From NCBI RefSeq assembly GCF_015100395.1, contig NZ_AP022847.1:684501-748500 (forward strand): 64,000 nt of DNA. The letters run 5' to 3'. Shown in pieces: positions 49,709 to 63,842 of this stretch (its first letter is position 1; each line of letters begins with the position of its first letter). The notes under the pieces were generated by a model. That model saw only the letters and a list, made by a program, of their open reading frames with translations, was not told where the DNA came from and searched no databases. The translations under genes were made by a program, and so were the position numbers. Origin of the DNA: Nitrosophilus alvini (GTDB lineage Bacteria; Campylobacterota; Campylobacteria; Campylobacterales; Nitratiruptoraceae).

Positions 49709-50227
49709 ATGAAAAGTTTAATCAAAATCACAATAATTCTCTCTCTTGCTTCAGTACTTTTCGCGACACAAAATGAGGTCAGCATTATCAGAAATGGCGG
49801 TATGACGCTTACAGTAAAAAGTTCCGAAATACAATGTCGCAATAAGCTTCAAACTTGTAATAAAAAGATAGAAAAGATGGAAAAAAAGATAAATTATCTC
49901 AATCAGCAGGTAGATTATTTTAAGAATGAGATAAAAAGATTGAAAAAAACGAAAAAAAGAGTTTCACTTTTGGAAAATAGAAAAAAGCTTATAATAACTT
50001 TTTTCAGGCCTAATGTTTTTAAAATAGTGAGAGATGCCTATCTTGTAGATATAGCAAACAAAAAAGTTGAAAAATGGAAGAAAGGAAGAAAATTTACTTC
50101 CTATCTGCATGATGATAAAAACAGATATAAAATTAGCGGATATTTTAAAAATGGCAAATGGGTTAAAGAAGAAAAAGACCTTTGGATTGATAAGAGATAT
50201 ATTATCGAGGCAAGAAAAAAAGACTAA
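49709..50227 (+). CDS. Exported coiled-coil protein of unknown function
   Basis: 172 residues. A signal peptide (about 1-20, ending LFAT) precedes a Lys/Glu-rich coiled coil (about 45-95, including KMEKKINYLNQQVDYFKNEIK) and a basic C-terminal domain. I do not recognise the family. AAAGGAGCTC gives a strong ribosome site. The 63-base upstream gap contains TTAAAC-AAT-GTTTAA, an imperfect palindrome whose role is unclear. Lies alone between the ABC exporter and tRNA-Glu. Confidence 0.65.
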   Translation: MKSLIKITIILSLASVLFATQNEVSIIRNGGMTLTVKSSEIQCRNKLQTCNKKIEKMEKKINYLNQQVDYFKNEIKRLKKTKKRVSLLENRKKLIITFFRPNVFKIVRDAYLVDIANKKVEKWKKGRKFTSYLHDDKNRYKISGYFKNGKWVKEEKDLWIDKRYIIEARKKD

Positions 50228-50363: not shown

Positions 50364-51407
50364 TTAAAGAGTGTTTAGCTCTTTATTATCAAAGTTTTTG
50401 TGGTAATATTTTTTATATAAGACTTTTTTTTCGAGTGCATGTATAACACCTTCTGCAAAATCTACTTTTTCAAATTTCTGTGCACTATGCAGACCTCCAG
50501 GACTGAAAACATTAACTTCAAGCAGTTTGTCTCCAACGATATCGAGTCCTACCAGAAACATACCATCCTGAACAAGCTTTGGTCTTATGATTTCAGCAAG
50601 TTCAAGCATCTTATCGGTGATTTTCGCCGGTTCGGCATGTCCCCCTGCATGTATATTGCTTCTTATATCTCCTTTACCACTGACTCTTTTAAAAGCTGCA
50701 TATTTTCCTCTGTATTTAAAAGGTTTTCCATTCATCATAAATAGTCTTACATCACCTTTTGTTGCCTCTGAAAAGAACTCTTGTGCTATGGCATATCCGT
50801 CTCTTATGACTGCATCTACCATCTGATTGAGATTGTTTTCATCTTCAGGTCCGGCAAAAAAAACACTTCTTCCTGCCGAGCCCTGAAGCGGTTTGAGAAT
50901 TATCTTTTTATTGTTTTGAAGATAAAACTCTCTTATTTCATCATGATTGCGCGTAATTAAAGTTTTAAGTCTTACAATTTTGGGAAAATGCTGAAAATAC
51001 ATCTTGTTTATAGCTTTTGCAAGTCCGTCTGGGTCATTCAAAACTATAACCCCGTGTCTTCTTGCAGTTCTTCCAAAAATATAACCTGCATGCTGAGCCC
51101 ACGGTTTTTCATAATCGGAAGCGGGATCGTTTCTAAGAAACAGAATGTCCAGAGCATCTACCGTGATTCGTTCCTTTTTGGCTTCTTTTGACTGCAGATG
51201 TTTCATGAAGTCAAAATCGTTTTTAAAATCTCTTCTTGAAGGAGAAACCGATCTTGCATAAATCTTCTCATCCGGATCATATGCAAAACTCCCCACATCA
51301 GTTAGCCATACCTCATGACCCATATTTGCAGCAGTAAGTGCAAGCCTTATCGTGGTGCTAGGCAGTGTTTCATTAAAAACGTCATTAAGTACAAAACCGA
51401 TTCTCAT
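50364..51407 (-). CDS. GshB-like ATP-grasp ligase
   Basis: 347 residues resembling glutathione synthetase: an N-terminal substrate domain (MRIGFVLNDVF), FLRNDPASDYEKPW (about 91-104) and an ATP-grasp core with KIILKPLQGSAGRSVFF (about 169-185), DVRLFMMNGKPFKYRGKY and the metal motif LLEVNVFSPGGLH. No gamma-glutamylcysteine synthetase (GshA) gene is near and Campylobacterota generally lack glutathione, so it may join another peptide-like substrate. Last gene of a three-gene operon with a metallopeptidase and an N-formylglutamate amidohydrolase, 4-base overlap. Confidence 0.8.
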   Translation of the reverse strand: MRIGFVLNDVFNETLPSTTIRLALTAANMGHEVWLTDVGSFAYDPDEKIYARSVSPSRRDFKNDFDFMKHLQSKEAKKERITVDALDILFLRNDPASDYEKPWAQHAGYIFGRTARRHGVIVLNDPDGLAKAINKMYFQHFPKIVRLKTLITRNHDEIREFYLQNNKKIILKPLQGSAGRSVFFAGPEDENNLNQMVDAVIRDGYAIAQEFFSEATKGDVRLFMMNGKPFKYRGKYAAFKRVSGKGDIRSNIHAGGHAEPAKITDKMLELAEIIRPKLVQDGMFLVGLDIVGDKLLEVNVFSPGGLHSAQKFEKVDFAEGVIHALEKKVLYKKYYHKNFDNKELNTL

Positions 51408-53308
51408 TGTAGATCCCTTTTTATAATTTCCAAAATATCTTTTTCCTTTTTCAGATTTTCAATTTTTTTTATTGCATTTGGTGTATCGAGGTATTTAGGA
51501 TATAAAGGTGGCTCATGCAGTACTTTTCTAAGTATCAGTTCCTGAATTATCGGTATATGTTTTGCTGCTATTTTCCCTGCATATAGAGGTTTTATCTTTC
51601 CATCCTCTTTTATATAGTTCAATATTTCCAGAAAACCTCTGAGATATACGGCATCCTTTGTCAGCCCGCCGCCTCTGAATACCCGTGTAGTAACAGAAAA
51701 AGCCGATTTATGTGAAAGATTGGCAGAATTTATCAAAAATCTGAAAGTTTCAATAAAATCGGCACCTTCTACCATAGCATCCACAGCGAGAACCCTTGCT
51801 GCGAGAATTTTTAGTCTTTGGATAGTAAGCCCGTCGCATAGATATTCGGAAAGGACAGCGAGCCCTTCCTGCATTTCATCATATCCGCAAAGACCTGTGT
51901 GAAGCTGTTTGAAAGGCTGGGAAAGGCCGTTGAAAAAGGTTAGTATATGTGTTCCTATTTCATGATTAAGCAGTGCTTCGATTCTATGTTCAGGGAAAGT
52001 GGCCCATTTATAGATAAGAAATTTTTCGCTGCTGACCATCGCACTTGAGACTATATCTTCTCTTATCTCTATATCAGCTTTGAAGTCAGGATATATATTT
52101 TTATAATATTCTATCTCTTTTTTTGCGTATTCGGCAAACCGTTTGGCATCGATTTTTTTGCTTTCTTTTGGGGTAGTATGTTCTTTTGTAATTTCTATTA
52201 TTTTTTTTGCGCTCTCTTTGAGGTTTTCATCCGGTCTTCCGTAAACCTGAAGGCTTCCGTAGAGGAACTTTTTTGTGCCTCTGTCGCTAAGCATTGTCAG
52301 TTTTCTGTCAAGTTCATCTCTTTTTTCTGAAAAAATTTCAAAAAGTGTAGGATCTTCTATATCTTCAATCGGAATCGAAAAAAGTTCTCTTTTGACGATG
52401 GAAGGATCAAAAGGACGAGGTCTGTAATAAAAAACAGGCTCTTTTTCAAAACCGCTTTTTTTGAAATTTTCCCATGCATCGTGAATATTTACAGGTGTAG
52501 CCTGAAGAAGGAAGTCAAAACTATCTTCGATTTTTGCCAGTTCTTCATCTGTTTTTTTGACAATTTTTGTAACCGCTCTTCGTCCCAGAGCCCTATAGTC
52601 GGCAGGAACAGTATTTGTATGCTCTTTTGAAAAGGTAAAAAAAGCTTTTTTAAGAGCCTGAGAGACTCCTTTATGAAGTTTTGCCAGTTCAAACGGATAA
52701 AGTTTTTTACCTTCTATGTCTTGATATATCGGTTTTACCTCAAGACCTATGCAAAATATTCTGTTTTGCTCAGAACACTCTTTGTCGAACAGAGGTTCAA
52801 TGTCTGGAGGTGAAATGGTTTTTGAGTATTTGATATTGACTTTTGCTTCAAGTTTATGTATGGAGATTTCTGACAGCTTGTTTTTCAGGGACTCTACACT
52901 GTTTGTAAGTACCCCCAGTTTAGGTGCATATATTGTAAATTCGGGCCTTTTTTCCTCTTCCGAAAACTCCTCTATATTTTTATTATAGGGTTTAGACCAT
53001 ATCTCCACCAGTAAAAATGCACCACAGTCCTCTTTTACTGTATCAGCAATTTTTTTTATAAGTAGTTTTAGGCGACTGTTTGCAGACTCTTCTGCAATGA
53101 TATATGCTGCTTCACCGTAAACAAGTCTTTTGGTACCTATATCATCTCTATTTGCGGGTCTTCTGTAAAGTGCCAAAAAAGGCAGCATTCTGTCAATATG
53201 AATTCTTCCCCATCCGGGCAGTCTTTCTCTTATAAGCATATTTTTTCGGAGTTTTTCGCATATTTCATCTATATGTTTGGCTGTTAGTCCGTCTGATTGA
53301 TTTTTCAT
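51404..53308 (-). CDS. DUF1704 (QEGLA-motif) metallopeptidase-like protein
   Basis: 634 residues, no signal peptide. The zinc site HEIGTH lies at 449-454 and the family QEGLA motif at 480-484, the pattern of the DUF1704 family to which the human tubulin-tyrosine carboxypeptidase MATCAP belongs. Bacterial members have been labelled as modulators of flavohaemoglobin expression, but no activity is established. The N-terminal 300 residues are family-specific. It overlaps both neighbours by 4 bases, so the three products probably act together; a cycle of peptide-bond making and trimming is a reasonable guess. Confidence 0.85.
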   Translation of the reverse strand: MKNQSDGLTAKHIDEICEKLRKNMLIRERLPGWGRIHIDRMLPFLALYRRPANRDDIGTKRLVYGEAAYIIAEESANSRLKLLIKKIADTVKEDCGAFLLVEIWSKPYNKNIEEFSEEEKRPEFTIYAPKLGVLTNSVESLKNKLSEISIHKLEAKVNIKYSKTISPPDIEPLFDKECSEQNRIFCIGLEVKPIYQDIEGKKLYPFELAKLHKGVSQALKKAFFTFSKEHTNTVPADYRALGRRAVTKIVKKTDEELAKIEDSFDFLLQATPVNIHDAWENFKKSGFEKEPVFYYRPRPFDPSIVKRELFSIPIEDIEDPTLFEIFSEKRDELDRKLTMLSDRGTKKFLYGSLQVYGRPDENLKESAKKIIEITKEHTTPKESKKIDAKRFAEYAKKEIEYYKNIYPDFKADIEIREDIVSSAMVSSEKFLIYKWATFPEHRIEALLNHEIGTHILTFFNGLSQPFKQLHTGLCGYDEMQEGLAVLSEYLCDGLTIQRLKILAARVLAVDAMVEGADFIETFRFLINSANLSHKSAFSVTTRVFRGGGLTKDAVYLRGFLEILNYIKEDGKIKPLYAGKIAAKHIPIIQELILRKVLHEPPLYPKYLDTPNAIKKIENLKKEKDILEIIKRDLQ

Positions 53309-54102
53309 AATTTTGCTCCTAACGATACCAACTCTTTGAGTATAACAGGCTCTAAAGATTTTACAAGACGGCTTATCTCTTCTATTTTTTCAAAATCTGC
53401 TTCGCCTGTCCATTCATCCATAAAAATTTTTTTAAATTCAAGTGAAAGAACGCATACGTTGGGCCCAAAATTTTCATGTGACCATCTTGCAAAATAGCCG
53501 CCGTAAAATTTGATATTTTCTCTTACATCAAGATATTTTCCAAAAAATTCATGTTTTGAAAGCTGTTCTTTGACCGCTTCTATAAGAGTTTCCCATAGTT
53601 TTCTATTTTTTATCGTTTTTGTGCCGAGATTTATATCGGGATTGAACTTATCCGGTTCAGGTGGTGCATCCGGTCCTTTTCTTCTATAGTTGTATGAGTG
53701 CATATCCAATACAACAAAATATCTGTAGCGTTTTTTCATGTATATAAATAGTTCAGACATTAATCTGTAAAAGAGATCATAAATCAACAGAGACTTCTCT
53801 TCCAAATGTTTCGGCAGATCTGTTTTGTATACCTGAAGGCCCCAGGCATCTTTGGGTGTTTTATATATCGCTTTTTCTCTTGGCCTGTTTAAGTCGATTT
53901 CAAATCTGGATCTATATACTACAATCCTATTATCAAAATATTTTGTAAAGAGTCCCACGTAAGGGTCCTCTTCTCTCAGTCTATCCTCTTCATTTAAAAA
54001 AAGAAAATCTTTAATCTCTTTTCTAATGAAATGACCGTTATGAATTGCAGTGGATATTATGGGTGAATTGCCTGTGTTTATCTGCCAGAGTACTTTTTTC
54101 AT
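53305..54102 (-). CDS. N-formylglutamate amidohydrolase family protein
   Basis: 265 residues. Starts VLWQINTGNSPIISTAIHNG; DLNRPREKAIY (about 80-90) and VVLDMHSYNYRRKGPDAPP carry the conserved Arg and His residues of the FGase family, zinc hydrolases acting on N-acyl or N-formyl amino acids. No histidine-degradation gene is near, which argues against the classical role. First gene of the operon with the QEGLA peptidase and the GshB-like ligase. Confidence 0.85.
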   Translation of the reverse strand: MKKVLWQINTGNSPIISTAIHNGHFIRKEIKDFLFLNEEDRLREEDPYVGLFTKYFDNRIVVYRSRFEIDLNRPREKAIYKTPKDAWGLQVYKTDLPKHLEEKSLLIYDLFYRLMSELFIYMKKRYRYFVVLDMHSYNYRRKGPDAPPEPDKFNPDINLGTKTIKNRKLWETLIEAVKEQLSKHEFFGKYLDVRENIKFYGGYFARWSHENFGPNVCVLSLEFKKIFMDEWTGEADFEKIEEISRLVKSLEPVILKELVSLGAKL

Positions 54103-54174: not shown

Positions 54175-54188
54175 TTGATATCGGTCAA
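54175..54188 (+). promoter_or_regulatory. Crp/Fnr-family operator 1 (TTGAT-N4-GTCAA) with -10 at 54211
   Basis: TTGATATCGGTCAA is a near-perfect Fnr/Dnr-type palindrome. Its centre lies 29.5 bases before the TATACT at 54211-54216, the spacing of class II activated promoters (site near -41.5). It faces the His-bearing membrane protein at 54241. Confidence 0.75.
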
Positions 54189-54240
54189 TGAATACTATAA
54201 ACGGCTTTGATATACTTTTTTAAAAAGTTAGAGGGGAAGA

Positions 54241-54687
54241 ATGGATACTGTTTTATATATTCATATTCTTGCTGCTACAGCGTGGATAGGAGGGTCTCTT
54301 TTTCTGTTTGCTTTGGGAATCTTTTTAAGAGACAAAAATGCACAATCAAATGTTTATCTCCATATCGGCCCTCTTTACGGATACTTTGAGACATTCTGGC
54401 TTATTTTACTGATACTTACCGGAACAGTCCTGTTTATATTCAACGGCCTGTATGATGTTTTGACTTTGGCGCCTGAGAGTTCTTTGGGAGAGGCTGTAAA
54501 AATAAAACTCCTATTTGTTTTCGCTATCACCGTACTTACCGCAATACATATGTATCTTGCTTTTAAAACACATGGTAAAGAGCGTACTTTGTTACAAACA
54601 GTTGTTTCAAGGTCAAGCTCTATGCTGATATTCATTTTGAATCTCTTTATCCTATGGTATGCTATTCAGCTTAGAAACTTTCTTTGA
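54241..54687 (+). CDS. Four-helix membrane protein with histidines, CopD-like
   Basis: 148 residues with four membrane helices. Histidines at 8 (helix 1), 41, 103 (helix 3) and 111 could bind haem or metal, and the AATAWIGGSLF helix resembles CopD/haem b membrane proteins. AGAGGGGAAG is the ribosome site. It is the first gene behind operator 1, and operator 2 for the next gene overlaps its stop codon. A role in N-oxide respiration or defence is inferred from the operators; no enzyme activity can be read. Confidence 0.6.
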   Translation: MDTVLYIHILAATAWIGGSLFLFALGIFLRDKNAQSNVYLHIGPLYGYFETFWLILLILTGTVLFIFNGLYDVLTLAPESSLGEAVKIKLLFVFAITVLTAIHMYLAFKTHGKERTLLQTVVSRSSSMLIFILNLFILWYAIQLRNFL

Positions 54688-54697
54688 TTTTTGTCAA
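54684..54697 (+). promoter_or_regulatory. Crp/Fnr-family operator 2 (TTGAT-N4-GTCAA) with -10 at 54720
   Basis: TTGATTTTTGTCAA overlaps the stop codon of the previous gene. A TATAAT at 54720-54725 starts 29.5 bases from its centre, exactly as at operator 1; another TATAAT lies at 54713. It should drive the DUF2249 / 12-TM / DUF59 operon. Confidence 0.75.
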
Positions 54698-54754
54698 AGA
54701 CTTTTTTTATCATATAATGTATAATTGTTATTATTTTGTTTCTCGGAGGGGGAT

Positions 54755-55102
54755 ATGGAAAATTTGCCAGAAAATGCACAAAAAGTAGAAGTTGAGGGTG
54801 CAACCGTCGATTTTTACAAATATGAGAAAGATGGTATAACCTACTATCAGTTCGACACTTCAAGATGCGGCCCGCCTGAACCTATGGTAAATGCAATGGC
54901 CGGACTCAGGCTTGTAACGGACAGTAATGTAAAACTTGTAATGATAAATCATAAAAAACCTATGGGCCTTCTTGACAAAATAGGTGAAAATTACGATATC
55001 GACATAGAAAATCTTCCTGATGGAAATGTAAAACTGGTATTCAGCTACAAACCAGAAGCTTCTGAAAAGGCGAATCTGAGCGAAGTTAGCTGCCACGGAT
55101 AG
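54755..55102 (+). CDS. DUF2249-domain protein
   Basis: 115 residues from ATG 54755, with GGAGGGGG upstream. The core FDTSRCGPPEPMVNAMAGL (about 34-52), then a strand-rich part with NHKKPMGLLDKIG, matches the DUF2249 pattern DxRxxxPPEPM...P..L. The cysteine in SRCGPP may act like that of TusA-type sulfur carriers, with which the fold is related; this is inference. DUF2249 proteins are often linked to nitric-oxide and denitrification regulons. The 12-TM gene starts 3 bases later. Confidence 0.6.
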   Translation: MENLPENAQKVEVEGATVDFYKYEKDGITYYQFDTSRCGPPEPMVNAMAGLRLVTDSNVKLVMINHKKPMGLLDKIGENYDIDIENLPDGNVKLVFSYKPEASEKANLSEVSCHG

Positions 55103-55105
55103 GAT

Positions 55106-56344
55106 ATGTTCAATATCTCCACAGATTTTGCTCCTCCCTTTAGGCTTATTGCGCCGTTTTTTATAGCCGGTACGATTGCTTATCTGCTGGCGGTTCTTTT
55201 TTTGCCCTATGCCGGCAGTTTTCTTACTGCGGGTAGATTTGATTTTACAATTATAGGATGGGTTCATCTATTTTTGCTTGGTTATGTAATGATGATAATA
55301 TTCGGTGCTATGGCGCAGCTTATACCGGTAGTATTGGAAATAGGGCACTATAGGGTAAAGCTTTTTTATGCTATTTTTTTTCTTTTGCTTTTTGGTGTTC
55401 TATTTTTGATATTCTCTTTTTTTATACAACCTGAGACTGCAGTTGTTGGTGGAGTGCTTCTGAGTGCTGCATTTTTTCTGTTTTCATTTAATGTTTTTAT
55501 GACGATAAAAAAGGTTCAAAACTGGTCATTTGCAGCCAAAGCTGTTTTTTTTTCAAATATATATCTTGTAGTGGGTACGTTTTTGGGTCTGATTATGACT
55601 ATATCTATATCAGGCTTGTTAGATATAAATATTGTCTCTTTCGTTACCGCACATGTTTTTTATATGGTAGCAGGGTATGTGATTTTAACAATTATCGGGA
55701 TATCTATGGTTTTGATACCGATGTTTAGTCTCTCTCACGGTTTTTCGCAAAAGAGTGCTGAATTATCTTTTCTGTTTCTTAATATCTCTGTAATTTTATC
55801 GATATTGAAAATTTTTACGGACTGGAAGCCGATACTATATCTTTCACTTCTTTTTTTTTATCTTGCTATGGTTGTGTATATATATCAGGTTTATATTATA
55901 TGGAAAGGTAGAGTACGCAAAGAGCAGGATGTTTGGTCAAAATCTGTGATAGTTTCTTTTCTTTTTCTGATTGTTTCACTAATTGTGGGTACTGTATATA
56001 TTTTAAGCGGGATTGAATCTGTTTTACTAGGAGCTGCATGGTTTATGTTTGCCGGTTTTTTTGCATTTTTGATTAATGGTCATTTTTTTAAAATTGTGCC
56101 GTTTCTTGTATGGTTTGATAGGTTTTCACCTCTTGTCGGTAAACAAAAGGTACCAATGCTTCATGAAATGGTTCCCAAAAAAGCATCCGATGCGGAATTT
56201 TTTTTCAGTCTCGTTGGTGTTACAGTTGTCGGGACTGGAATAATTTTTGAAAAATATGATATATTTATGGCGGGAGTAAGTTTTATGATAATGGGTGCTG
56301 CTATACTTTCGTATGCCGTACTATGGATGATAAGATTTAAGTAA
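55106..56344 (+). CDS. Twelve-helix membrane protein with paired His repeats (NnrS / haem-copper-like)
   Basis: 412 residues, about 12 membrane helices. Six histidines: 54, 81, 183, 211, 326, 353. The stretches around 51-83 and 180-213 are internal repeats: His, then Gly-Tyr 5-8 residues on, then LIP, then His after 27-28 residues. The PFRLIAPFFIAG start recalls NnrS, and a His in membrane helices followed by IP recalls haem-copper oxidase subunit I, but the full HxH and HH motifs are absent. It may bind haem and handle NO or oxygen. It is behind operator 2, with DUF2249 and DUF59 partners. Family assignment is open. Confidence 0.6.
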   Translation: MFNISTDFAPPFRLIAPFFIAGTIAYLLAVLFLPYAGSFLTAGRFDFTIIGWVHLFLLGYVMMIIFGAMAQLIPVVLEIGHYRVKLFYAIFFLLLFGVLFLIFSFFIQPETAVVGGVLLSAAFFLFSFNVFMTIKKVQNWSFAAKAVFFSNIYLVVGTFLGLIMTISISGLLDINIVSFVTAHVFYMVAGYVILTIIGISMVLIPMFSLSHGFSQKSAELSFLFLNISVILSILKIFTDWKPILYLSLLFFYLAMVVYIYQVYIIWKGRVRKEQDVWSKSVIVSFLFLIVSLIVGTVYILSGIESVLLGAAWFMFAGFFAFLINGHFFKIVPFLVWFDRFSPLVGKQKVPMLHEMVPKKASDAEFFFSLVGVTVVGTGIIFEKYDIFMAGVSFMIMGAAILSYAVLWMIRFK

Positions 56345-56354
56345 GGAGTCAGTC

Positions 56355-56705
56355 GTGGGAAAAGTTACAAAAGAGCAGGTCTATGATGCCATAAGAACCG
56401 TCATTGATCCTGAAGTCGGATTCAATCTTGTTGACATGGGATTAATATATGATGCAATTATAGATGATGAGAACAATGTAAAAGTTGTAATGACGCTCTC
56501 AACAAGAGGGTGTCCTCTGCATCAGATGCTGACACAATGGGTTAAAGATGCGGTTGAAAGAATACCTGAAGTAAAGTCATGCGAAGTAGAAGTTGTATGG
56601 GATCCGCCGTGGAATATATCAATGGCCAGTGAAAATGTAAAAAAAGCGCTTGGTGCAGGCGGCAACGATGAAAATTCCGAAAAAGGGTGGAATAATATTT
56701 TCTAA
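56355..56705 (+). CDS. DUF59/MIP18-family Fe-S assembly protein (SufT/PaaD-like)
   Basis: 116 residues from GTG 56355, with AAGGAG ten bases ahead. The MIP18 fold is clear: AIRTVIDPEVGFNLVDMGLIYDA (about 12-34) and TLSTRGCPLHQML (about 47-59) with the conserved Cys, then VVWDPPWN. Such proteins help insert Fe-S clusters into target enzymes. Here it may mature a cluster protein needed for N-oxide respiration, e.g. NapA or an NO-damaged protein. Confidence 0.85.
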   Translation: MGKVTKEQVYDAIRTVIDPEVGFNLVDMGLIYDAIIDDENNVKVVMTLSTRGCPLHQMLTQWVKDAVERIPEVKSCEVEVVWDPPWNISMASENVKKALGAGGNDENSEKGWNNIF

Positions 56706-56928
56706 AGAGAGTATTCTTAAAGAGTTTCGCCATATTTATGGAACGGGTATACTCTTTTTTTATTATCTGAAATGGCCATATGTTCTTGGTTTGCCCGTTC
56801 TGTATTTCTATTTGGATTATAAAAACAACTGGGTATTAAATATTTTATGGTTATATTGTTTGATATTGATTTTGAAAGATATATATATGAAATTTATCGC
56901 AAAAAAAAACTACTGCGACAAAAATTAA
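56668..56928 (+). CDS. Small membrane protein overlapping the DUF59 gene
   Basis: 86 residues from ATG 56668, which overlaps the end of the DUF59 gene by 38 bases. A basic N-terminus and two hydrophobic segments (about 26-50 and 56-75) are seen. No family recognised. The ribosome site is weak, so translation would depend on coupling. Its position between DUF59 and the DUF1858 gene with no gap makes it a likely real gene, though less certain. Confidence 0.5.
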   Translation: MKIPKKGGIIFSKESILKEFRHIYGTGILFFYYLKWPYVLGLPVLYFYLDYKNNWVLNILWLYCLILILKDIYMKFIAKKNYCDKN

Positions 56929-56940
56929 AAAAGGCAGATA

Positions 56941-57450
56941 ATGCAGATAGGTTTTGACACTAAAGTTTACGATCTTTTAAAAGAGTATCCGGAACTAGAA
57001 GAGAAGCTCATAGAGATAAATCCAAAATTCAAAAAGCTTAAAAATCCTGTACTTAGGCGTACCGTTGCAAAAATAGCATCATTGGCCCAGGCAGCAAAAA
57101 TTGGCGGGATGGATCCGGTTGATCTTGTGAACAGACTAAGAGCATATGTGGGGCAGCCGCCGATAGATAAAGCGTATGAAGAAAAAGTTCAGCCATCTGA
57201 ACGGCCTGAATGGATAAAAGAGATACCCTTTGTCGAAGTAGACGGAAGCAAACTTTTGGACGAGGGAAAAAATCCTCTCAGGGAGCTTCACAAAATTATC
57301 AAAAATGCTCAAGAGGGTGACATTATTTTGTTAAAAACAGATTTTATGCCTCTGCCTCTTATAGATACTTTCAAAAAAGAGGGACATCAAGTATTTGCTG
57401 AAGAAAAAGGCGAAGAGTGTTTTACATATATAAAAAAAAGAGCAAAATAG
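56941..57450 (+). CDS. DUF1858-DUF2249 fusion protein
   Basis: 169 residues. The N-terminal DUF1858 domain (about 3-68) has LKEYPELEEKLIEINPKF and LRRTVAKIASLAQAAKIGGM; the C-terminal DUF2249 domain (about 88-167) has EVDGSKLLDEGKNPLRELHK and TDFMPLPLIDTFKKEGHQVF. This pairing occurs in anaerobes near Fe-S or NO-related genes. With the stand-alone DUF2249 at 54755, the operon has two copies of the domain. Function unknown. Confidence 0.75.
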   Translation: MQIGFDTKVYDLLKEYPELEEKLIEINPKFKKLKNPVLRRTVAKIASLAQAAKIGGMDPVDLVNRLRAYVGQPPIDKAYEEKVQPSERPEWIKEIPFVEVDGSKLLDEGKNPLRELHKIIKNAQEGDIILLKTDFMPLPLIDTFKKEGHQVFAEEKGEECFTYIKKRAK

Positions 57451-57499
57451 GGTAAAATTTCTGTGTCTTTTTTAGAAAATTTGAATAGCAGGGAAATAG

Positions 57500-58066
57500 G
57501 TGCAAGAAGTAATAGATACTCTTTCAAAATATGGATATATTATTCTTTTTTTCTATTCACTTGGTGGAGGCTTCGTTGGTATAATTGCAGCGGGTATACT
57601 CTCATATATAGGAAAAATGGATCTTTACATCTCCATGGCGGTAGCTGCGACAGCTAACGCTTTGGGTGACCTTATTCTTTTTTATCTCGGAAGATATAAC
57701 AAATCGGTTGTGATGCCCTATCTGTCAAAACATAGAAGAAAACTTGCTCTGTGTCATGTTTTAATGAAAAAATACGGTTCAAAAATAATATTTTTTCAAA
57801 AATTTGTTTATGGACTTAAAACATTTATCCCGATTACTATCGGTCTTACAAAATATGAGTTCTCGAAATTTATGATATGGAATATTTTTTCGGCAATTTT
57901 ATGGGCGCTTTTTTTTGGTCTTCTCAGTTTTAACGCGGGAGCCATGCTTCTGGCGTTTGCTGATATTGTTTCGCAAAGGCCGTGGATAGCTCCGCTTATT
58001 GTGGTGACGCTTCTTGCTTTGATCTGGTACTATTTTTCATATGCAACCAGAAAAAAAAACGCATAA
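57500..58066 (+). CDS. DedA family membrane protein (second paralogue)
   Basis: 188 residues from GTG 57500, ribosome site AGGG. DedA motifs: ANALGDLILFYLGRYNKS (about 52-69), KFVYGLKTFIPITIGLTKYEF (about 99-119) and C-terminal membrane helices. It resembles the DedA at 19204 in length and layout but sits at the end of the operator-2 operon, an unusual place for this lipid-flippase family. It faces the FmdE-like gene across 19 bases. Confidence 0.88.
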   Translation: MQEVIDTLSKYGYIILFFYSLGGGFVGIIAAGILSYIGKMDLYISMAVAATANALGDLILFYLGRYNKSVVMPYLSKHRRKLALCHVLMKKYGSKIIFFQKFVYGLKTFIPITIGLTKYEFSKFMIWNIFSAILWALFFGLLSFNAGAMLLAFADIVSQRPWIAPLIVVTLLALIWYYFSYATRKKNA

Positions 58067-58085
58067 GATAAAAAGAGGATTTTTA

Positions 58086-58688
58086 TTATCTGATTTTTAC
58101 GATATTTTCCCATAAATTTTCATCACATAGAATTTTTTCTACGCGTTCTTGCCAGAGCGCTTTAAAAAGCTTCTTCTCTTCATCGTTTGCTATACCTGAC
58201 AGCATTTTTTGCATTAAAGTTCCTGTTCTAGGGTCGGAAGGAACGGATGAGGGGTCGTAGTCGATAAGACAACTTTCGTTTGTATCTATTCTGGTCAATT
58301 TTACTTCACTTTCAATATTTGCGCCGAATCTTAGTCTGTTTGCTCTTCCAAACTTTCCTGCCAGTCCTTTGAACCCCCCTTCATTGGCTGCTCCTGTTAT
58401 AAATCCTATTACATTTCCGATTACGCCTGTAACCCCTTCTCTTATATCTCCTTTCATATCTACTATAATCTCGCCTCTTACAGGTGTGCTATCGGGATAG
58501 AGTTTTTTAAGACCCAGCATTGTCATAAGATAAGCTCCTGCTACTGTAGGACATGAATGACCGGCAAACTTTGCTATATCTACATAGCGCATTTCTATAA
58601 TACCATCTTCAAAAGCTCCAAGAAAATCAGCAAGAGGGTCATATAAAGTTATCGATTTAACATTGTCGAAAAACTTAGGATAGTTCAT
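58086..58688 (-). CDS. FmdE-like protein
   Basis: 200 residues. AGHSCPTVAGAYLMTMLG (about 42-59) with His44 and Cys46 is the metal-binding signature of FmdE proteins, first seen beside molybdenum formylmethanofuran dehydrogenase. The rest includes GNVIGFITGAANEGGFKGL. Outside methanogens the role is unknown; binding of a metal or molybdopterin precursor is a guess. Its promoter (TATAAT on the minus strand at 58741-58736) lies 29.5 bases from operator 3, so it seems to belong to the same regulon as nap. Confidence 0.8.
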   Translation of the reverse strand: MNYPKFFDNVKSITLYDPLADFLGAFEDGIIEMRYVDIAKFAGHSCPTVAGAYLMTMLGLKKLYPDSTPVRGEIIVDMKGDIREGVTGVIGNVIGFITGAANEGGFKGLAGKFGRANRLRFGANIESEVKLTRIDTNESCLIDYDPSSVPSDPRTGTLMQKMLSGIANDEEKKLFKALWQERVEKILCDENLWENIVKIR

Positions 58689-58763
58689 ATTTTCTCCTGT
58701 GTAAAGTTTTTATTAAAAATATTATCAAGATAGTTATTATAAACTTAAATATCCAAAATAAAT

Positions 58764-58777
58764 TTGACCTCTGTCAA
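58764..58777. promoter_or_regulatory. Crp/Fnr-family operator 3 (TTGAC-N4-GTCAA), shared by divergent genes
   Basis: TTGACCTCTGTCAA is a perfect palindrome. On the minus strand a TATAAT at 58741-58736 is 29.5 bases from its centre, for the FmdE-like gene. On the plus strand a TATAAT at 58801-58806 is 30.5 bases away, for the regulator, though that start would leave almost no leader. So it may act in both directions and allow autoregulation. Confidence 0.78.
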
Positions 58778-58817
58778 TTTGTTATCATTTGTATGTTGGT
58801 TATAATCAAGGAGAATA

Positions 58818-59480
58818 ATGCTCAAAAAAGTGACTGTTGAGGATCTGAAAGGTCTCTTCCTTTTTGAATCGCTAAGTGAAGAGGATCTTGAGGAGCTTAC
58901 AGATTTTATAGTTTTAAGAAACTATAATGCCAAAGATATCATCTATTATGAAAGCGAAGTAAAAAAGCAGCTCTATTATCTGAAAAGCGGTTTGGTAAAA
59001 GTTTATAAAGTAGACAGGTTTGAAAACGAGATATTTTTATACAACATTGAGAGCGACAATATGATAACGAAGATAAGCAGCCTTAATGAAGATAGTATAA
59101 ACTGTTTTGGAAATATTGAATGTATCGAAGATTCAGAAGTTTTGATAATAAACTATGAAAAGTTTAGATATTTTTGCATACAAAAGTCCGATATATTGCT
59201 CAAACTTGTTGAAATTTTTGCAAAACGGAATGCGATGCTGGAGTGTCTTATAAGCAGAGAACTTGTATATGACGGTGTTGCGAAAGTGGCTTTTACTTTG
59301 ATAAACGACCTTGATATATTCAATAAGCTCAAAAAACAGGAGATTGCATATAGACTCAATATTCAACCTGAAACTCTGTCAAGAATTTTGAAAAAACTCT
59401 CCAGAAGAGGGCTGATAGAGACAAAAGGAAATGATATAAAAATAATCGATCCGGAAGGATTGAAAGAAATATATGAATGA
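58818..59480 (+). CDS. Crp/Fnr-family transcription regulator (Dnr/NssR-like)
   Basis: 220 residues. A cyclic-nucleotide-type sensor domain (about 10-120), a dimer helix and a C-terminal helix-turn-helix with QEIAYRLNIQPETLSRILKK (about 174-193). The Fnr Fe-S cysteines are missing at the N-terminus, so it is not a classical oxygen sensor; Dnr/NssR-type NO sensing is possible. AAGGAG is its ribosome site. Operator 3 lies in its promoter, and matching boxes precede nap and the DUF2249 operon, so it is the likely regulator of the whole region. Confidence 0.85.
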   Translation: MLKKVTVEDLKGLFLFESLSEEDLEELTDFIVLRNYNAKDIIYYESEVKKQLYYLKSGLVKVYKVDRFENEIFLYNIESDNMITKISSLNEDSINCFGNIECIEDSEVLIINYEKFRYFCIQKSDILLKLVEIFAKRNAMLECLISRELVYDGVAKVAFTLINDLDIFNKLKKQEIAYRLNIQPETLSRILKKLSRRGLIETKGNDIKIIDPEGLKEIYE

Positions 59481-59492
59481 TCAGGAACAGAT

Positions 59493-60851
59493 ATGCGAAA
59501 GATAACTTCACAAATAAAATTTATAGGCGGAGCTCTCTCTTTTTTTATTATTGCAATAATTTTTTCTGTAATTTACATCAACCACAAAAGTAAAACAGAC
59601 TCTGTAGTCATAAATGTTTCAGGAAAACAGAGAATGTTGACACAGAGGATAAGTAAAGAGGTTTTTAGATTAAAAACAGCCAATGATATCGATACAAAAG
59701 AGCTTGACCAGTCGATAGAAATTTTTGAAAAAAACCTGTTTGATCTTTTAAACGGCAATGAGAAAAGAGGTATATACAAGCCACCGACTCAAGAGATAAA
59801 AGAGCAGCTTGAAAGGGTAAAATCTCTCTGGCTTCCGTTCAGGCAGAAGGTATACGAATTTAAAGATCTGATTTTAAGAATTTATGACGATAAAAGATAT
59901 GTTATAGAAAAAAACAGTGAGATTCTTGATATTTCCGATGAGATAGTAAAAGCTATGACCCGTGCAGAAGTAAGCGGTGAATATATAGACAAAGCCGGCC
60001 GTCAAAGAATGCTTTCGCAGCGGATGATGTATTTTTTACTGCTTTATCTAAATGAAGGGGAACCAAAATATTACAGGATTTTTTATGAAAGTCTGAATCT
60101 TTATGATAAAACCTTGAATGAGTTTTACAATGACATGGAACTTTTAGGAAAAAGTACCGAAATTGAGGAGCTTGTAAAAACCAATATCAATCTTTGGAAA
60201 GTTTACTCCAGAAAAGCTCAGGAGTTGATGGAGACACAAAGCAATATAAACAATATCGTTTCATACGTTCATCAGTTCAATACCGTGCTTCTTGAAGGTA
60301 TGGATCAGGCAGTTTCTATGTATACGATATATTCCGAGCAGCAAAGAGAAACTCTTGAAAATATAGAGTATATACTGGGACTTATTGCTCTTGTGATTAT
60401 GTTCTATTCATCGTTTTTGATTAGAAGAATCCAAAAAGATTTTGATGAGTTTCTAAAACACTCTAAATCTCTCGTCAAGATAAGCGGTGATGACGCAAGC
60501 ACATATGAAAGTGAATCGGAAAAAAAGTTATGCGAGCAGACGGATGAGTTGACACAGGCTGCTACACATCTTGAAAAATTTATTAAAAAAATAGATAAAA
60601 TGATAGTTGATGCTCAAAACGCTATCGAAACATCTAAAAAAATAGCAAAAGAGATTGGAAGTGTAGGTGAAATTATTGAAAAAGATATTGACAAATTAAA
60701 TATAGACAAAGATAAAAAGAAAAAACTTGACAAATATGTCGATAACACCGAAGATATTGCAATCCAATCTCTGGAGGAACTTCAAAACAGTACACTGCTT
60801 CTTCAAAAGCTGCATGAAAATCTTGTTTCAATTCTTAAACATTCAAAGTAA
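59493..60851 (+). CDS. Membrane sensor with two NarX/PilJ-type modules and no kinase
   Basis: 452 residues. Membrane spans at about 9-28 and 290-307. The periplasmic part has two P-box-like repeats, SGKQRMLTQRISKE (about 43-56) and AGRQRMLSQRMMYF (about 168-181), the motif by which NarX/NarQ bind nitrate. After the second span there is only a short cytoplasmic coiled coil (about 355-450) with no HAMP-kinase, GGDEF or chemotaxis tip. It sits 12 bases after the Crp/Fnr gene and before napA, so nitrate sensing is likely, but how it signals is open. Confidence 0.8.
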   Translation: MRKITSQIKFIGGALSFFIIAIIFSVIYINHKSKTDSVVINVSGKQRMLTQRISKEVFRLKTANDIDTKELDQSIEIFEKNLFDLLNGNEKRGIYKPPTQEIKEQLERVKSLWLPFRQKVYEFKDLILRIYDDKRYVIEKNSEILDISDEIVKAMTRAEVSGEYIDKAGRQRMLSQRMMYFLLLYLNEGEPKYYRIFYESLNLYDKTLNEFYNDMELLGKSTEIEELVKTNINLWKVYSRKAQELMETQSNINNIVSYVHQFNTVLLEGMDQAVSMYTIYSEQQRETLENIEYILGLIALVIMFYSSFLIRRIQKDFDEFLKHSKSLVKISGDDASTYESESEKKLCEQTDELTQAATHLEKFIKKIDKMIVDAQNAIETSKKIAKEIGSVGEIIEKDIDKLNIDKDKKKKLDKYVDNTEDIAIQSLEELQNSTLLLQKLHENLVSILKHSK

Positions 60852-60932
60852 CTTTATAATGCCGGTTTTAGCGGCAAAAGTTAAATAGGATATATTTTAT
60901 CTTAATTATTTTAATAATGTTGAATTATAAAA

Positions 60933-60946
60933 TTGACTCAAGTCAA
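60933..60946 (+). promoter_or_regulatory. Crp/Fnr-family operator 4 (TTGAC-N4-GTCAA) upstream of napA
   Basis: TTGACTCAAGTCAA is a perfect palindrome, 30.5 bases (centre) before TAAAAT at 60970-60975, and about 95 bases before the napA ATG. The spacing fits class II activation. The intervening leader is about 60 bases with no other element seen. Confidence 0.8.
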
Positions 60947-61040
60947 GGACTCTTACTTTTAAGGAATGCTAAAATCATACCTGTAAACTACAGACATTGT
61001 GAAACTTTATGTTTTGCAAAATCATATACAGGAGGAGTAA

Positions 61041-63842
61041 ATGGCACTTAGTCGTAGAGATTTTTTGAAGAGTGCAGCTGCTGCAACTGCAGCGAGCGCC
61101 GTCGGGCTTGCAGTTCCAAAAGAGATGGAAGCTGCGAGCAAAAACGCTGAAGCCGGCTGGAGATGGGATAAAGCTGCCTGTCGTTTCTGCGGAACCGGTT
61201 GCGGTATTATGATCGCTACTAAAAACGGCAGAATAGTTGCTGTCAAAGGTGACCCTGCAGCACCTGTTAACAGAGGTCTTAACTGTATCAAGGGTTACTT
61301 CAACGCCAAGATTATGTACGGTGAAGACAGACTCAAAACTCCGCTTCTCAGAATGAATGACAAAGGTGAATTTGATAAGAAAGGCAAATTTAGACCTGTA
61401 AGCTGGAAAAGAGCATTCGATGAGATGGAGAAGCATATAAGAAGAGCTTTGAAAGAGAGCGGACCAGAAGGTGTTGCTGTATTTGCATCAGGACAGTATA
61501 CCGTTATGGAAGGATATGCCGCACATAAGATGATGAAAGCGGGATTTAGATCCAATGCTATAGACCCGAATGCAAGACACTGTATGGCAAGTGCGGTTGT
61601 CGGTTTTTATCAAACATTCGGTGTGGATGAGCCTTCAGGATGTTACGATGATATAGAGCTTACAGATACGATCGTAACATGGGGTTCAAATATGGCTGAG
61701 ATGCACCCGATTCTTTGGTCAAGGGTTACGGACAGAAAACTCAGCAACCCGGATAGAGTAAAGATAGTAAACCTTCAAACATACACTCACAGAACCTGCG
61801 ATTTGGGTGATATAAACATTATCTTCAAGCCCCAAACAGATATGCTTATATGGAACTATATAGCTCATGAGATAGTATACAATCATCCTGAAGCTATCGA
61901 TTGGGACTTTGTCAAAAAATATATAGTTTTTGCAACCGGACCTATAAATATCGGTTACGGTATGAGAAGAGCCGGCGATAAGTCTCTTAGCAAATATAGT
62001 CCAAAAGAGATGGAAACAATTAAACAAGAAATGGAGCATGTCGTAAGTGAAGATGAAGCTCCTGCTCTAGAGCCTTACGGATATAAAGCCGGAGATGTGA
62101 TTAAACACAAAGGTGGAACTCTCAAGCACTGGGAGATCTCTTTTGAAGAGTACAAAAAATCTCTAGCACCTTACACGCTAGATTATGTTGCAAGAGTGGC
62201 AAAAGGTGATCCTGATGAGTCTTTGGAAGAGTTCAAAGGTAAACTGAAAGCTCTTGCTGATCTATATATAGAAAAAGACAGAAAAATTGTATCTTTCTGG
62301 ACAATGGGTATGAACCAGCACACAAGAGGAACATGGGTAAATACTCTTTCTTACAATGTCCACTTTTTGCTTAATAAGCAAGCGAAGCCGGGATGTGGTG
62401 CATTCTCTTTGACAGGACAGCCTAGTGCGTGCGGTACCGCAAGGGAAGTTGGTACATTTACCCACAGATTGCCGGCTGATTTGATGGTAAAAAATCCTAA
62501 ACACAGAAAAATAGCAGAAAAAATCTGGAGAGTACCGCATGGTACTATAAACCCTGTAGGAAAGCAGCATATCATGGCTATCCACAGAGGTCTTGAAGAT
62601 GGATTGATCAAGTTTGCATGGGTTAACGTATGTAACCCGTATCAAGATTCTGCAAGTGCTAACCACTGGATCAAAGCTGCCAGAAACATGGATAACTTCA
62701 TAGTTGTAAGTGACGGTTATCCGGGAATCAGTGCAAAAGTTGCAGACCTTATTTTGCCAAGTGCGATGATTTATGAAAAATGGGGAGCATACGGAAACGC
62801 TGAAAGAAGAACTCAGCACTGGAGACAGCAAGTTCTTCCGGTTGGCGAAGCTATGAGTGATACATGGCAGTGGGTTGAACTTAGTAAAAGATTTACAGTA
62901 AAAGATCTATGGGGAGCTTATCCTCCAAGTGGCCCAAGAAAGAAACCTCTTCCAAGTGTTATCGAAGAAGCCAAAAAAATGGGCTACAGCGAAGATACTA
63001 CAATGTTCGAAATCCTATTTGCGAACGACAGAGCGAAAAAATATAAAATCGACTTGACTAAGTTCCCGCAAAAAGGATTTGATAACAGTGAATGTCTCGG
63101 TGATGCGAGAAATGTAAAAGGAAGTGACGGTAAAGTCTTCAAAGGGTATGGTTTTATGATTCATGAATATCTCTGGGAAGAGTACAGACTCTTTGGACTT
63201 GGACATGCTCATGACCTTGCTGACTTTGCAACATACCACAGAGTAAGAGGTTTGAGATGGCCAGTTGTTGACGGAAAAGAGACTCAGTGGAGATTTAACA
63301 CTAAATATGACCCATATGCAAGAAAAGCAAATCCGAACGGAGATTTTGCATTCTATGGAAAAATTGCTAAGGCTCTTCCATCCGGTAACTTGACTGGTGT
63401 AACAGACAAGAAAAAGAAACCTTTGCCAAACAAAGCGAAAATATTTGCAAGACCATATATGCAGCCACCTGAAATTCCTGATAACAAATATCCTTTCTGG
63501 CTATGTACAGGTAGGGTATTGGAGCACTGGCACAGTGGAACTATGACTATGAGAGTTCCTGAACTTTATAGAGCAGTTCCTGAAGCTCTTTGCTTTATGC
63601 ATCCTGAGGACGCCAAGAAAATCGGTGTTAAACCTGGCGAACTTGTTTGGGTTGAAAGTAGAAGAGGTAAGGTAAAAGCAAGAGTTACTACAAGAGGAAG
63701 AAACAGACCACCAAAAGGTCTTGTGTTCGTTCCATGGTTTGATGAGAGGGTATTTATCAACAAAGTTTGTCTGGATGCCACATGTCCTATGTCTAAACAG
63801 ACAGACTTCAAAAAGTGTGCTGTTAAGATATACAAAGCTTAA
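61041..63842 (+). CDS. napA: Periplasmic nitrate reductase catalytic subunit
   Basis: 933 residues. A Tat signal peptide [15 protein letters not shown] (about 4-18) exports it folded. A [4Fe-4S] site uses Cys47, Cys50, Cys54 and Cys82; the molybdenum ligand is Cys181 in [13 protein letters not shown]. The length and the inserts fit the epsilonproteobacterial NapA. It reduces nitrate to nitrite with bis-MGD, supplied through MobB. AGGAGG lies before the ATG. napG follows after 50 bases, as in the napAGHBFLD order of this phylum. Confidence 0.98.

Follow-up and report, generated by a model that had tools for sequence, protein, structure and literature searches.

Predicted sites of Nss/DNR-type Crp/Fnr class II activators at nitrate reduction, denitrification and nitric oxide-handling genes of Nitrosophilus alvini

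The DNA analysed here, a 64-kb stretch of the genome of the vent-type bacterium Nitrosophilus alvini (bases 684501-748500 of its single contig of 1,807,889 bases; hereafter the window), contains four copies of the palindrome TTGAY-N4-RTCAA, each at a narrowly defined distance from a −10-like box. The first, TTGATATCGGTCAA (54175..54188, plus strand), and a TATACT box (54211..54216, plus) precede the gene for a 148-residue membrane protein (54241..54687, plus), which the first-pass annotation of this DNA had described as His-bearing and whose similarity to DUF2269 (E value 0.011) falls under the Pfam cut-off. The second, TTGATTTTTGTCAA (54684..54697, plus), lies with a TATAAT box (54720..54725, plus) upstream of an operon encoding a DUF2249 protein, a protein with 12 transmembrane segments (12-TM protein) and a DUF59 protein. 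Between the genes for an FmdE-like protein and for a Crp/Fnr regulator, termed NssA-like below, we found TTGACCTCTGTCAA (58764..58777, no strand assigned), which has a TATAAT on either side, one (58736..58741, minus) serving as the box for the FmdE-like gene and the other (58801..58806, plus) facing the regulator gene as a doubtful promoter. The fourth, TTGACTCAAGTCAA (60933..60946, plus), is followed by a TAAAAT box (60970..60975, plus) and by napA (61041..63842, plus; NapA equivalog match), the first nap gene. The gap between palindrome and box is 22 bases for the 148-residue protein gene, the DUF2249 operon and the FmdE-like gene, and 23 bases for the regulator gene and napA; the centre of the palindrome is accordingly 29.5 or 30.5 bases from the first base of the box.

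These palindromes, in the form TTGAY-N4-GTCAA, and their distances to the boxes had been proposed in the first-pass annotation. The positions given for them (54175, 54684, 58764 and 60933) were right, they were the sole matches in the window, and re-measurement located five boxes at the distances given, including those on both strands at 58764. The four matches compare with 0.67 expected, and none of 100 shuffles of the window reached four. Moreover, a TAnnnT box at gap 22 or 23 was present on all five gene-facing flanks (P about 3e-6). This spacing supports the class II geometry of the Fnr/Dnr type that had been suggested, with the operator centred at about −41.5.

Genome-wide work consisted of pattern searches and the analysis of selected stretches. 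The palindrome occurred 21 times in the genome, versus four times for the reversed pattern, and exact composite sites (palindrome plus box) 13 times versus once for the control. Fourteen of the 21 palindromes were intergenic or slightly overlapped a gene end, and on the 16 gene-facing flanks of the intergenic sites, which we chose from the open reading frame map, a TAnnnT box stood at gap 22 in 12 cases and at gap 23 in two. Given a background of 0.039 per position elsewhere, the binomial probability of this peak (14 of 16) is about 2e-14. Nine of the 21 fell within a 38-kb nap-nor-nir-nos island (738.7-776.9 kb), which supports the earlier proposal of a nitrogen oxide (N-oxide) regulon. From the window onward, this island holds napA and more nap genes, a porin gene, a second Crp/Fnr gene, nitric oxide (NO) reductase and nir-like genes, nosZ, accessory nos genes and a NirDL-type heme d1 gene; except for NapA, the porin and the NirDL-like protein, the names were assigned by position and by reading of the sequences. 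At genome position 774733 the palindrome TTGACATTCATCAA lies 61 bases 5' of a 351-residue open reading frame, with no box at the right spacing; we take this frame to encode a cytochrome c peroxidase-like protein. The regulon had also been called local, which proved too narrow a description, because the exact spacing recurs at sites in front of a hemerythrin gene with a second 12-TM protein gene after it (257707), a COX2/COX1-like pair (1797604), a multiheme cytochrome gene (1388426) and an Mrp-like gene (551560), and good sites lie up to 1.06 Mb away.

The sites and their spacing were also conserved in relatives. In four genomes of the same family, in which gene order is preserved and the NssA-like regulator is 70-73% identical, the napA promoter keeps both site and spacing; all 14 bases of its operator, TTGACTCAAGTCAA, are identical in all five genomes, and the flanks have diverged. 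Site and spacing are likewise kept at the nor, nosB and DUF2249 operon promoters in the relatives whose region was fetched, and at the porin promoter in those fetched relatives that have the gene. When the order as a whole was compared, the DUF2249/12-TM operon carried a site (no more than one mismatch) together with its box (gap 22 or 23) at 29 of 30 loci; at the thirtieth a contig end leaves only 430 bases upstream. The COX2/COX1-like pair had a site at 19 of 20 loci across the order, with gaps of 21 to 24. Less conserved was the hemerythrin site, for which one relative (G001) has the palindrome without a box and another (G003) gave no site. The 148-residue membrane protein gene was an exception, with a one-mismatch orthologous site and TATACT in G001 and a third relative (G007) and no orthologous site found in G003. 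Over 120 genomes the exact composite site occurred 585 times, versus 42 for the controls. Of the targets named in the first-pass annotation, sites and spacing support the FmdE-like gene and the gene for the His-bearing membrane protein, as well as nap and the DUF2249/12-TM/DUF59 operon, as predicted members of the regulon. On the other side of the operator at 54175, an FGase-like, a PF08014 and a glutathione-synthetase-like gene (window 50364-54102, minus) diverge from it, and the same genes are near the 148-residue protein gene in G003 too; a TATAAT on their side is 31.5 bases away, one or two bases beyond the usual distance, and these genes are a possible sixth target.

The NssA-like protein (58818..59480, plus) matched PF00027 and PF13545 above cut-off, that is, the Crp/Fnr effector domain and the Crp-type helix-turn-helix. 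Its AlphaFold model (pLDDT 87) retrieved CRP/FNR structures in Foldseek, and its closest solved sequence match was Pseudomonas aeruginosa DNR. In its recognition helix, QPETLSR, residues E185, S188 and R189 were invariant in 17 aligned homologues. A second Crp/Fnr protein, NssB-like, is encoded 10.5 kb downstream (genome 754429-755067, minus); it is 35% identical to the NssA-like protein, and its helix, APETLSR, has the PETLSR in common with it. Both proteins carry Glu, Ser and Arg at the positions by which FNR reads TTGAT or TTGAC, so that they probably share the predicted sites. A third Crp/Fnr protein (49943-50146 region, minus, in a 274-residue reading) was rejected as a candidate because its helix, TVRHVVNR, is without the Glu-Ser-Arg pattern and it is only 20% identical to the NssA-like protein; the plasmid records yielded distant Crp/Fnr matches only. 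Directly downstream of the NssA-like gene, in the relatives as well, is a gene for a PilJ-domain protein (window 59493-60851), a possible N-oxide sensor partner of the regulator.

We consider it very likely that the four palindromes are sites of an Nss/DNR-type Crp/Fnr class II activator of nitrate reduction, denitrification and NO-handling genes. The NssA-like protein of the window and the NssB-like protein would then be two candidate activators of common sites, much as NssA and NssB share targets in Wolinella according to the account given in a review (PMC6682613); by analogy with that account, the signals would be nitrate for NssA and NO for NssB. The predicted regulon would comprise nap, the porin gene, nor/nir, the accessory nos operon, the heme d1 genes, the DUF2249/12-TM/DUF59 operon, the hemerythrin gene with the second 12-TM protein gene, and a copper-A-less heme-copper oxidase, the COX2/COX1-like pair. 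Several points weigh against this reading. Seven of the 21 palindromes are inside genes and have no consistent box, and two intergenic ones, at 774733 and 1407748, are without the spacing. The putative orthology to Wolinella NssA and NssB is taken from the figures for the N. labii genes, 44.8% and 50.0% identity, respectively (PMC11539149), and the identity to NssA itself is a value for the N. labii protein. In N. labii, furthermore, denitrification genes were expressed without any N-oxide, and a negative correlation with nosZ was seen in the expression of the NssA-like gene (PMC11539149).

One version of the two-regulator reading, in which the NssB-like protein is the main activator, with the NssA-like protein contributing an input from nitrate at some few sites such as napA, is a serious possibility, if one we hold with somewhat less than even confidence. 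It would account for the retention of sites where NssA-like proteins are missing, as they are in 46 of the 71 genomes having the 12-TM gene; however, genomes with an NssA-like protein are also rich in sites (a mean of 6.15 composite sites), and in N. labii it was the NssA-like gene, not the NssB-like gene, that correlated with nap, nor and nir (PMC11539149). The first-pass annotation had instead proposed that the NssA-like regulator alone controls all five window promoters, its own included. Its gene does sit among the targets, its recognition residues are right, and a TATAAT stands at gap 23 on its own side. Nevertheless, the island encodes the NssB-like paralogue with the same recognition residues, and in a sister genus that lacks NssA-like proteins (weaker Crp/Fnr matches or none), 16 genomes had a mean of 6.5 composite sites versus 0.06 for controls and kept the site at the DUF2249 operon in those of the 30 loci with readable upstream DNA. 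The NssA-like protein therefore cannot be the sole regulator, and we regard this proposal as improbable.

The self-activation that formed part of the same proposal did not hold up well either. From the TATAAT at 58801-58806, transcription is predicted to begin at about 58813, where the Shine-Dalgarno sequence AAGGAG (58808-58813) ends; with the start codon at 58818, the transcript would have a leader of 5 bases without a Shine-Dalgarno sequence. In the four relatives the orthologous operator is ATGACATNNATCAA, with one mismatch, and the FmdE side alone has a correctly spaced box; towards the regulator gene, a TATAAT immediately precedes the operator, where operator occupancy would be expected to block rather than activate transcription of the regulator gene. 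Because the start falls in the Shine-Dalgarno sequence and the geometry is not conserved in the four relatives, self-activation is doubtful. In the other direction, the FmdE-like gene (58086..58688, minus; Pfam match to PF02663) is a well-supported predicted target.

Much less probable still is a reading of the TTGAC halves as ordinary −35 boxes for sigma-70, with the palindromes incidental. TTGAC does resemble the −35 hexamer, but such a hexamer, at 17-base spacing, would begin 23 bases ahead of the −10 box, and the left half begins 36-37 bases ahead of it; we rejected the reading on this spacing. Moreover, both halves of the palindrome are conserved in relatives. The probability of chance occurrence in AT-rich intergenic DNA, for which the seven intragenic palindromes, incidental in appearance, might be cited, is negligible in view of the shuffle and reversed-pattern controls, the spacing peak, and the order-wide conservation with site and spacing retained at orthologous promoters.

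The regulator had been described as free of cysteine; it has four, C96, C102, C120 and C143. Escherichia coli FNR binds TTGAT half-sites at a class II position through Glu, Ser and Arg recognition residues. The NssA-like protein and its predicted sites resemble it in all three respects; the protein differs in having no N-terminal cysteine cluster of the kind that FNR combines with one internal cysteine, its first cysteine being residue 96, and for this reason we rejected its assignment as a 4Fe-4S oxygen sensor of the FNR type. The 104 distinct homologues (identity at least 37%) comprised 89 with both C96 and C143, ten with neither, five with C96 only and none with C143 only. As these counts are inflated by relatedness and the homologues were gathered partly via conserved motifs, we take the co-conservation as a lead towards a sensor and not as proof of one. 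In the homologue table, the NssB-like proteins, which are more distant, have neither cysteine, and residues 145-150 of the NssA-like AlphaFold model are of low confidence. The C96/C143 pair is a possible redox or metal sensor.

The first protein of the operon behind the second operator (54755..55102, plus) was assigned to DUF2249 through its aligned members: nine of ten aligned DUF2249-type proteins matched PF10006 weakly (E values up to 10, best 0.0018), and the window copy gave no match at E values up to 10. For DrpA, a DUF2249 protein of Thermus whose expression is under the master regulator DnrT, a role as nitrate sensor has been proposed (PMC6282519). The 12-TM protein (55106..56344, plus) has the fold of heme-copper oxidase subunit I, with a model of pLDDT 90, a TM-score of 0.79 to cbb3 subunit I and invariant histidines H54, H81, H183, H211 and H326; no solved relative was found by sequence. 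Its gene, encoding an oxidase-fold protein that stands alone, was present in 71 of the 120 related genomes. In oxidases the seventh transmembrane helix bears a His pair; the stretch that would correspond to it in the 12-TM protein (residues 216-238, its seventh transmembrane helix) has no invariant His. Identification as NnrS (PF05940) was rejected, given this fold and the failure of all 16 orthologues to match at E values up to 1. The operon ends with the DUF59 gene (56355..56705, plus; Pfam match to PF01883). The hemerythrin gene and the gene for the 12-TM paralogue that follows it (genome 255588-257642, minus) lie behind the operator at 257707, with TAATAT at gap 22. We infer a role of the 12-TM protein in NO handling from its regulation, the hemerythrin partner of its paralogue and the oxidase fold. 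In the COX2-like and COX1-like pair (genome 1797678-1799929, behind the operator at 1797604), COX2 is without the copper-A cysteines, and this heme-copper oxidase may be a second NO reductase; we found nothing specific in the literature on this oxidase type (gNOR and others) in the group.

The core of these findings is already published for the nap, nor and nosB sites of N. labii. RNA-seq in that organism placed the first base of TTGA-N6-TCAA 48-49 bases upstream of the napA, norE and nosB starts, and the sites were attributed to two Nss-type regulators (PMC11539149); the distance puts the site centre at about −41.5. N. alvini resembles N. labii in having two Crp/Fnr genes (NIL_RS03760 and NIL_RS03815 in N. 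labii), located upstream of nap in one case and of nor in the other, in the nap-nor-nir-nos arrangement with a PAS gene, and in exact sites at napA, norE and nosB. The N. labii paper gives no −10 boxes, its text uses none of the words DUF, hemerythrin or formylmethanofuran and mentions neither the FmdE, the DUF2249/12-TM nor the hemerythrin genes, it infers a negative effect on nosZ, and it names −10/−35 elements and mutants as future work (PMC11539149). In Wolinella succinogenes, as the review describes it, the signals are nitrate for NssA, NO for NssB and nitrous oxide (N2O) for NssC, and the targets are the same reductases. Control of the reductases for nitrate, nitrite and N2O by Crp/Fnr proteins, described for this member of the Campylobacterota (Kern and Simon 2016, via PMC6682613), would be common to both organisms, although three Nss regulators are described there and two were found here. 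Pseudomonas DNR (CTTGATnnnnATCAAG, PMC1274295) has the same operator type and a similar target set; it is of low sequence similarity and from a different phylum, and DNR itself senses heme/NO. Campylobacter jejuni NssR (TTAACnnnnGTTAA, PMC1274295) is a Crp/Fnr regulator of the NO response from the same phylum, but its operator is TTAAC-N4-GTTAA and its residues are Ala180-Gln181, in contrast to TTGAY-N4-RTCAA and Pro-Glu here. Both sites and recognition residues thus bear out the earlier statement that the palindrome is not of the Campylobacter type, and we rejected that operator type for the NssA-like protein.

To the published core the present analysis adds the −10 boxes with their exact spacing, a wider target set, order-wide conservation, the doubt about self-activation and the cysteine pair; the gene set is larger, and the likely regulators are different, than the first-pass annotation had proposed. 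A broader view, which we put forward as speculative and rather unlikely in its entirety, is that in Campylobacterota two paralogous activators read one class II site, that the regulon core is not nap but an NO-handling module of the DUF2249 protein, the stand-alone oxidase-fold membrane protein and the copper-A-less oxidase, and that the NssA branch senses through C96/C143 by a chemistry unlike that of FNR (iron-sulfur) or DNR (heme). No FNR, ArcA or NarP orthologues were found in Campylobacterota according to the review (PMC6682613), and these bacteria are important denitrifiers and N2O reducers at vents. The conservation of the exact-spacing site across the order makes it a usable rule for predicting the regulon, and the result points to two uncharacterised membrane operons as constant members of the regulon and, within NssA, to a cysteine pair open to mutational testing.

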